DNA of 47,119 bases from Bacteroidota bacterium. Lineage in GTDB: Bacteria > Bacteroidota > Bacteroidia > Flavobacteriales_F > PHOS-HE28. The DNA is taken from the NCBI GenBank assembly GCA_018267065.1, contig JAFDZG010000100.1, positions 1-47,119 of the forward strand. Direction: 5' to 3'. The notes beneath the pieces were generated by a model. The model saw only the letters and a program-made list of their open reading frames with translations. It did no database searches and had not been told where the DNA came from. How positions within the stretch are numbered: position 1 is the first letter of the stretch; each line of letters begins with the position of its first letter. The position numbers and the translations under genes were made by a program. Of this stretch, positions 44,385 to 44,957 are shown one piece after another.

Positions 44385-44471
44385 GGAGAAGTGGCCGAGT
44401 GGTTTAAGGCGCACGCCTGGAAAGTGTGTTTACCTGAAAGGGTAACGGGGGTTCGAATCCCTCCTTCTCCG
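44385..44471 (+). tRNA. tRNA-Ser(GGA)
   Basis: An 87-nt class II tRNA with a long variable arm. Acceptor arms GGAGAAG (44385-44391) and CTTCTCC (44464-44470) pair perfectly, with discriminator G at 44471. The D arm carries GGCCGAGTGGTTTAAGGC, and the anticodon stem CACGC/GTGTG encloses CTGGAAA with anticodon GGA at 44419-44421. The T loop is GGTTCGAATCC. The terminal CCA is not encoded (the next bases are CCG). It reads UCC and UCU serine codons. Confidence 0.97.
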
Positions 44472-44473
44472 CC

Positions 44474-44910
44474 GATCGGCCCCGCGAAGCGGGGCAAGAA
44501 ACAGGAAAGCCTTGGTCGTGCTTGCACGAAGCCAGGGCTTTCCTTTTTCTTGCCAAGCCCGCGCAGCGGGCAGGCCGATCGAAGCCTCCCCCCTTTGGGA
44601 TGGCGCGCCTCGGGCAATGCCTCCCACAGTTCACCGCTGCCGAGCTTGCTCGAAGCTCCGGCGTTTGGCATTTATCCGTGGCCGCGCAGCGGCCGCAGCG
44701 TTGAAGCCTCTCCGCCGTACGGCGGAAAAGCCCGCCTCGGGCAATCCCTCCCCCTTCAGGGATGGCCCCGCTGAGCATAAATGAAGTGGCGCTCCGCAAG
44801 CCGGTACGGCTGAGGAGCCGAAGCGCGCACAATCCCTCCACCGGCTCTCAACACCGAGTTTGCTCGAAGCATCCGGCCACTTCACATGGTATCAAGCCGC
44901 GAAGCGGCCG
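44474..44910. repeat. Palindromic repeat block (REP/BIME-like) downstream of tRNA-Ser
   Basis: A 437-nt noncoding block built from inverted repeats. The first part is a cruciform-like unit whose outer arms GATCGGCC (44474-44481) and GGCCGATC (44573-44580) enclose three hairpins. Four triloop hairpins recur: 44479-44495 (loop GAA), 44557-44571 (GCA), 44680-44694 (GCA) and 44896-44908 (GAA). A second motif, a small TT-loop or TTTG-loop hairpin followed by AAGC, occurs at 44516-44533, 44641-44656 and 44855-44870. A 16-bp perfect palindrome lies at 44711-44726. Direct repeats include a 19-mer at 44607-44625 and 44734-44752 (one mismatch) and GAAGCCTC at 44581 and 44703. No protein is supported here. 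This is the only gene-free stretch over 300 nt in the window. Confidence 0.8.
44494..44553 (+). terminator. Long hairpin, probable terminator of tRNA-Ser
   Basis: A 60-nt hairpin. The lower stem pairs 44494-44515 with 44532-44553 (one mismatch and one G-T pair), and the upper stem pairs 44516-44521 with 44524-44529 around a TT loop. Five T follow the GC-rich part at 44544-44548, which fits an intrinsic terminator for the tRNA transcript. It is also the middle arm of the cruciform-like repeat unit, so the terminator role may be secondary. Confidence 0.6.
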
Positions 44911-44957
44911 TGGCATGGAAGCATACTTCCTCAACCATTTCTGTTTACCTTGACTCC

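Follow-up and report, generated by a model that had tools for sequence, protein, structure and literature searches.

A structure-conserved, three-armed palindromic element directly behind tRNA and tmRNA genes of Bacteroidota, and its decayed tandem array behind a tRNA-Ser gene

The window (the whole stretch of 47,119 nucleotides of Bacteroidota DNA that was analysed) carries on its forward strand a tRNA-Ser(GGA) gene at 44385-44473, identified with ARAGORN and Rfam model RF00005, which is the host gene of an array of hairpins. The first stem of this block starts at the base right after the tRNA end at 44473, and the block reaches to about 44922. Hairpins in 44474-44910 exceed chance expectation by a wide margin (fold z about -6), the folding energy lying 5.75 standard deviations (DNA) and 6.17 standard deviations (RNA) below dinucleotide shuffles, with 0 of 100 shuffles as low. 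Every feature that an earlier note had described here was recovered: four GNA-triloop hairpins at 44480-44494 (GAA), 44557-44571 (GCA), around 44681-44692 (GCA) and 44896-44908 (GAA); a second small hairpin followed by AAGC in three copies (44516-44532, 44640-44656 and 44854-44870); a 16-bp perfect palindrome; and, at 44474-44581, a cruciform-like unit whose outer arms are closed. Its duplicated 19-mers do exist as a repeat pair, although they are near-duplicates rather than exact copies (23 nt at 44603 and 44730, 91% identical).

The cruciform-like unit (unit 1, 44474-44581, outer stem GATCGGCC/GGCCGATC) is an intact three-armed element, recognised by its fold and by the covariance model R1 (81.4 bits, E 2.5e-13). 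It consists of a left mini-hairpin (44480-44494, CCCCGC-GAA-GCGGGG), a central arm of 62 nt (44493-44554), which has a 4-bp hairpin at its apex with a bulged AA behind it (CGTG-CTTG-CACG, then AA) and whose 3' strand holds a T5 run, and a right mini-hairpin (44557-44571, GCCCGC-GCA-GCGGGC). The remainder of the block, all on the forward strand, is made of partial units separated by joints, which hold a T-stem-like hairpin and copy part of the 3' tail of the tRNA, the stretch from A58 in the T-loop to C75 (44456-44473, AATCCCTCCTTCTCCGCC). The first joint (44582-44625) reads GCCTCCCC... and continues with a pseudo-T-arm (GGGAT-GGC-hairpin-GC-AATGCC) and a tail copy from A58 at 44616-44625. Unit 2 (44640-44708) is present as its 3' half only, from the apex hairpin CCGAGCTTGCTCGAAGC onwards (R1 25.5 bits at 44616-44702), and a half-deletion of this type also occurs in related species. 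The linker behind it contains the 16-bp palindrome, TCCGCCGTACGGCGGA, at 44711-44726. A second joint lies at 44722-44754 (hairpin GCCCG-CCT-CGGGC with tail copy AATCCCTCCCCC at 44743-44754) and a third at 44758-44842 (pseudo-T-arm AGGGAT...AATCCCT with tail copy AATCCCTCCACC at 44831-44842). The last unit (44854-44922) is again a 3' half, with the apex CCGAGTTTGCTCGAAGC, the right hairpin GCCGCGAAGCGGC at 44896-44908 and the end GGAAGC. Half-units break at the apex. The block is thus a decayed tandem array in which one intact unit is accompanied by two or more half-deleted ones and the joints bear copies of the tRNA tail, and it is not a single new local family.

The loop of the third pseudo-T-arm holds a second repeat (GCTGAGCATAAATGAAGTGGCGCTCC...GAAGC, about 44770-44829, forward strand), of which an 87% copy lies on contig C236 of the same genome. 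This repeat family, GCTGAGCATAA...GGCTGAGGAGCCGAAG, was also found away from tRNAs, its further sites in the own genome (G000) being on C236, at C242:18308-18368 and at C327:1747-1780.

Across loci the unit is about 107 bases long, starts right after C75 of the tRNA and has the same order of outer stem, left mini-hairpin, central arm of about 62 nt and right mini-hairpin. The length of the central arm is 62.4 +/- 2.4 nt in 66 units (upper limit of the stem scan, 66 nt) and its apex, AGCTTGCT with a G(CTTG)C tetraloop, is about 80% conserved. The rest is hypervariable in sequence while the pairing is kept: in an alignment of 24 units both sides had changed at 27 of 46 pairs, and the covariation score was 0.475 vs 0.134 for shuffles (0/500), with slid controls below 0.1. 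Many copies were missed by blastn because their sequence differs so much between loci. The apex hairpin motif was tried as a lone copy marker and rejected, a search of the own genome giving mainly matches without the structure. Rfam scans of the window and of other loci returned only tRNA and tmRNA at gathering score and otherwise weak chance matches, which agrees with the earlier remark that the motifs were not recognised.

In the own genome units were found behind all four tRNA-Ser genes, tRNA-Leu(GAG) and tRNA-Pro(CGG), whereas a majority of the 37 tRNA genes inspected there had no unit. With R1, a model of type-A units that misses weaker unit types, units were identified in 20 of the 45 species that represent the genus, which constitutes the whole order in the genome set. 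Copy number and unit type vary between close species, and different unit types occur within one array. In one further genome of the set (G010) an insert of 3.6 kb carrying a phage-type integrase gene separates tRNA-Ser(GCT) from tRNA-Pro (L098, 245-3867); R1 found no units in that genome.

Outside the genus R1 gave two matches in other families, both directly 3' of tRNAs. A broader covariance model (R2, which included two reverse-strand rows by mistake) gave matches in 82 of 396 Bacteroidia genomes, the 82 belonging to 48 genera, and in six more genomes from one family of another Bacteroidota class, so that the block is no local structure of single origin. R2 contains no tRNA sequence, and the tRNA adjacency of its matches is therefore not circular. 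The census figures derive from the model searches and from the stretches read, which outside the genus were the 45 best-scoring loci. Among these, 38 lie behind a whole tRNA gene (Ser, Pro, Val, Leu, Met, Cys, Arg, Asp or Lys), one follows a tmRNA gene (L287) and six follow 3' parts of tRNAs without the 5' part, so that all 45 abut the 3' end of a tRNA, a tmRNA or a displaced tRNA, as the proposed tie to tRNA 3' ends implied. The displaced parts (L268, L289, L294-L296 and L301) break near the T-loop or further upstream, and at L268 the tail adjoins a Phage_integrase gene; since the displaced end at this integrase locus keeps the element, the element accompanies the tRNA end also where the gene has been split by integration. 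The orientation check that had been suggested showed the element to be always co-directional with the tRNA. All R1 and R2 matches read lie at tRNA or tmRNA 3' ends, and none of them showed a dispersed intergenic pattern. An element of conserved structure hence adjoins the 3' ends of tRNA and tmRNA genes across Bacteroidota; in the literature searched, no description of tRNA-linked palindromes in Bacteroidota was found.

The earlier comparison with REP/BIME elements has some basis in architecture: REP, BIME and REPIN elements are likewise composed of short palindromes with inner mini-hairpins and inverted pairs, about 110 bp in all, and the GNA hairpins of our element form an inverted pair in one ~107-nt palindrome, as in a REPIN. 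Such a palindrome would be moved by a RAYT (HUH) transposase, and Y1 transposases are indeed present in 30 of 39 genomes of the genus. Nevertheless, the GTAG/CGTC tag that defines REP elements (PMC3733652) stands at the hairpin foot in just 1 and 2 of the 66 units of the genus and 0 and 1 of the 45 others, and the element shows no co-occurrence with Y1_Tnp in 377 genomes outside the genus (45/66 vs 207/311, p=0.89). The suggested search for RAYT genes was successful in the genus, yet the flanks read at 14 RAYT-like genes bear other palindromes. Together with the hypervariable sequence and the restriction to tRNA and tmRNA 3' ends, this brings membership in the REP/REPIN class close to refuted. 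Several RAYT-like genes of the genus (L117-L134) each have their own flanking REP-like palindromes.

Outside the genus both mini-hairpins are followed by a run of at least four T in 40 of 45 elements, the left one when the top strand is read and the right one when the bottom strand is read; inside it this holds for 9 of 66, and 0 of 26 type-A units of the genus have T-runs in both directions. As judged from these sequence patterns, there is about an even chance that the element is a two-way terminator and insulator of stable-RNA genes, whose T-runs have been lost and whose units have multiplied in the genus of the window. The left hairpin with its T-run would stop the tRNA transcript, the right hairpin with the T-run of the other strand would stop incoming antisense transcription, and both T-runs would belong to a single central palindrome, one to each of its strands. 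In the high-GC genus of the window most units after tRNA-Ser would have lost the T-runs and kept the fold; since the genus units mostly have no T-run, termination is not their retained function. A hairpin and T-run per strand is what bidirectional intrinsic terminators have in common with 40 of the 45 elements outside the genus. They differ from the arrangement here, in which two separate hairpins face each other across a common 62-nt palindrome with a conserved apex, and in which the T-runs are mostly lost in the genus. The terminator reading is further favoured by the constant position behind stable-RNA genes, by the covariation, by the signs of folding on the tRNA-sense strand given below, by tail copies that start at A58 and match the local isoacceptor, and by the breakage of half-units at the apex. 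Against it, termination calls for neither a 62-nt palindrome nor a conserved apex, and G.T pairs are rare.

The same T-runs bear on the possibility that the element is a structured RNA which is cut from the tRNA precursor, like the rtT RNA of E. coli, and which has a cellular function of its own. The strong covariation, the fixed arm length and the constant co-direction with the tRNA would agree with this, as would the loops on the sense strand, which are GNA/GNRA in the mini-hairpins and G(CTTG)C at the apex. GNA, GNRA and CUUG-type loops are established stable loops. However, with a T-run after the first hairpin in most carriers, the majority of transcripts would not reach the central arm, the element belongs to no Rfam family, and close species differ in copy number and unit type. 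G.T pairs are moreover rare in the central arm (49 vs 1626 Watson-Crick), which is unlike typical RNA helices and fits upkeep at the DNA level or by template switching. Those that occur favour folding on the tRNA-sense strand, G.T exceeding A.C in 17 clusters vs 6 for the reverse; the total G.T excess is weak (35 vs 20, p=0.058) and the raw G.T/A.C count of 41/15 is inflated by related sequences. We consider a dedicated RNA of this kind rather improbable.

The joints provide separate information on how the arrays formed. In Ser, Leu and Lys arrays the copied tail starts at T-loop A58 and differs from the tRNA just upstream, and the tail copies match the local isoacceptor (CCTTCTCC for GGA, CCCCCCC for GCT). 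In front of each copy in the Ser, Leu and Pro(CGG) arrays stand a T-stem-like strand and then a small hairpin, which together make up a T-arm with its loop replaced. The Val(CAC), Pro(TGG) and own Pro(GGG) arrays have as their unit a nearly whole degenerate tRNA with hairpins for the anticodon and T loops. On the preferred terminator/insulator reading, the segment of tRNA tail plus element would have multiplied in the genus, its copies joining at the T-arm; we infer that arrays would grow by recombination or slippage between T-arms, and they would decay when the long palindrome loses an arm.

A similar layout was found in E. coli K-12 at the tyrT/tyrV repeats (L259, 1286000-1288600), where the annotation names rttR and tpr. 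These are also tandem repeats behind a tRNA; at their joints a 19-nt copy of the tRNA-Tyr tail (AATCCTTCCCCCACCACCA) starts exactly at A58, the preceding complement pairs with the tail (GGGGAAGGAT/ATCCTTCCCC) to form an acceptor/T helix, and the unit contains GNA hairpins (GTTGCC-GCA-GGCAAC and CCC-GAA-GGG) like those described here. They differ in that the unit is 178 bp long and encodes Tpr, its predicted fold has no three arms and there is no sequence similarity. The tyrT repeats yield rtT RNA, and the model of this RNA (RF00391) had no match in the window at Rfam gathering score or at 19 other loci at E<0.5. As far as the sequences tell, the arrays are alike in layout and not homologous in sequence.

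Site-specific recombination would account for the joints in another way: a tyrosine recombinase would cross over in the T-loop between 57 and A58, each unit of ~150 bp being a gene-less insertion with its own tRNA tail (a cassette or a scar) and the pseudo-T-arm being the attachment site. The start of the tail copies exactly at A58 in the Ser, Leu and Lys arrays is an exact direct-repeat, att-like boundary, the same boundary recurs in the E. coli tyrT repeats, tRNAs in this phylum are known to be split by DNA that bears an integrase gene (L268) and different unit types share one array. Integron attC sites also combine a hypervariable stem with a conserved fold and extrahelical bases; the element differs from them in being three-armed and without cassette genes, and no integron integrase was found at the arrays read. 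We nonetheless regard such recombination as unlikely, for no recombinase was seen linked to the arrays read, displaced tRNA halves still bear the element, which is thus older than the islands, the tail is always that of the local isoacceptor, as local duplication equally predicts, and a degenerate, almost entire tRNA serves as the unit in the Val, Pro(TGG) and Pro(GGG) arrays.

A neutral origin would combine replication template switching, which perfects hairpins beside tRNAs, with slippage, which builds arrays, and would involve no function. Template switching yields perfect stems and instant double changes (PMC8794818), and the stems here vary yet remain Watson-Crick perfect, while loops of tRNA copies have turned into hairpins. 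A neutral process would however fix neither the arm length and the AGCTTGCT apex, which are conserved across many families, nor the lack of the element at most other tRNAs of the same genome, and we therefore judge it quite improbable. More tentatively than the terminator/insulator reading, we consider that the element may be a 3' module dedicated to tRNA and tmRNA genes, phylum-wide and absent from Rfam, which some factor would read via the fixed-length arm and the AGCTTGCT apex; tail copying from A58 would then be a general mechanism common with the E. coli tyrT repeats.

No part of bacterial genomes is better annotated than the stable-RNA genes, and yet a large, exactly placed folded module lies behind them in dozens of Bacteroidota genera, where roles in termination, insulation, RNA processing and recombination can be tested directly. 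The A58 boundary, common to both, links the element to the tyrT repeats of E. coli, which have long lacked an explanation, and allows definite predictions on how tRNA-tail copies arise.

Tail copies with a plain terminator and without the three-armed element were seen behind tRNA-Glu(TTC) (L077) and tRNA-Lys(TTT) (L188 and L191), and tail copying is thus independent of the element. The tandem degenerate tRNA copies at L245 (Val CAC), L241 (Pro TGG) and L233 (own Pro GGG) have perfect loop-replacing hairpins, and the Val copies at L245 carry a Pro-like anticodon arm.
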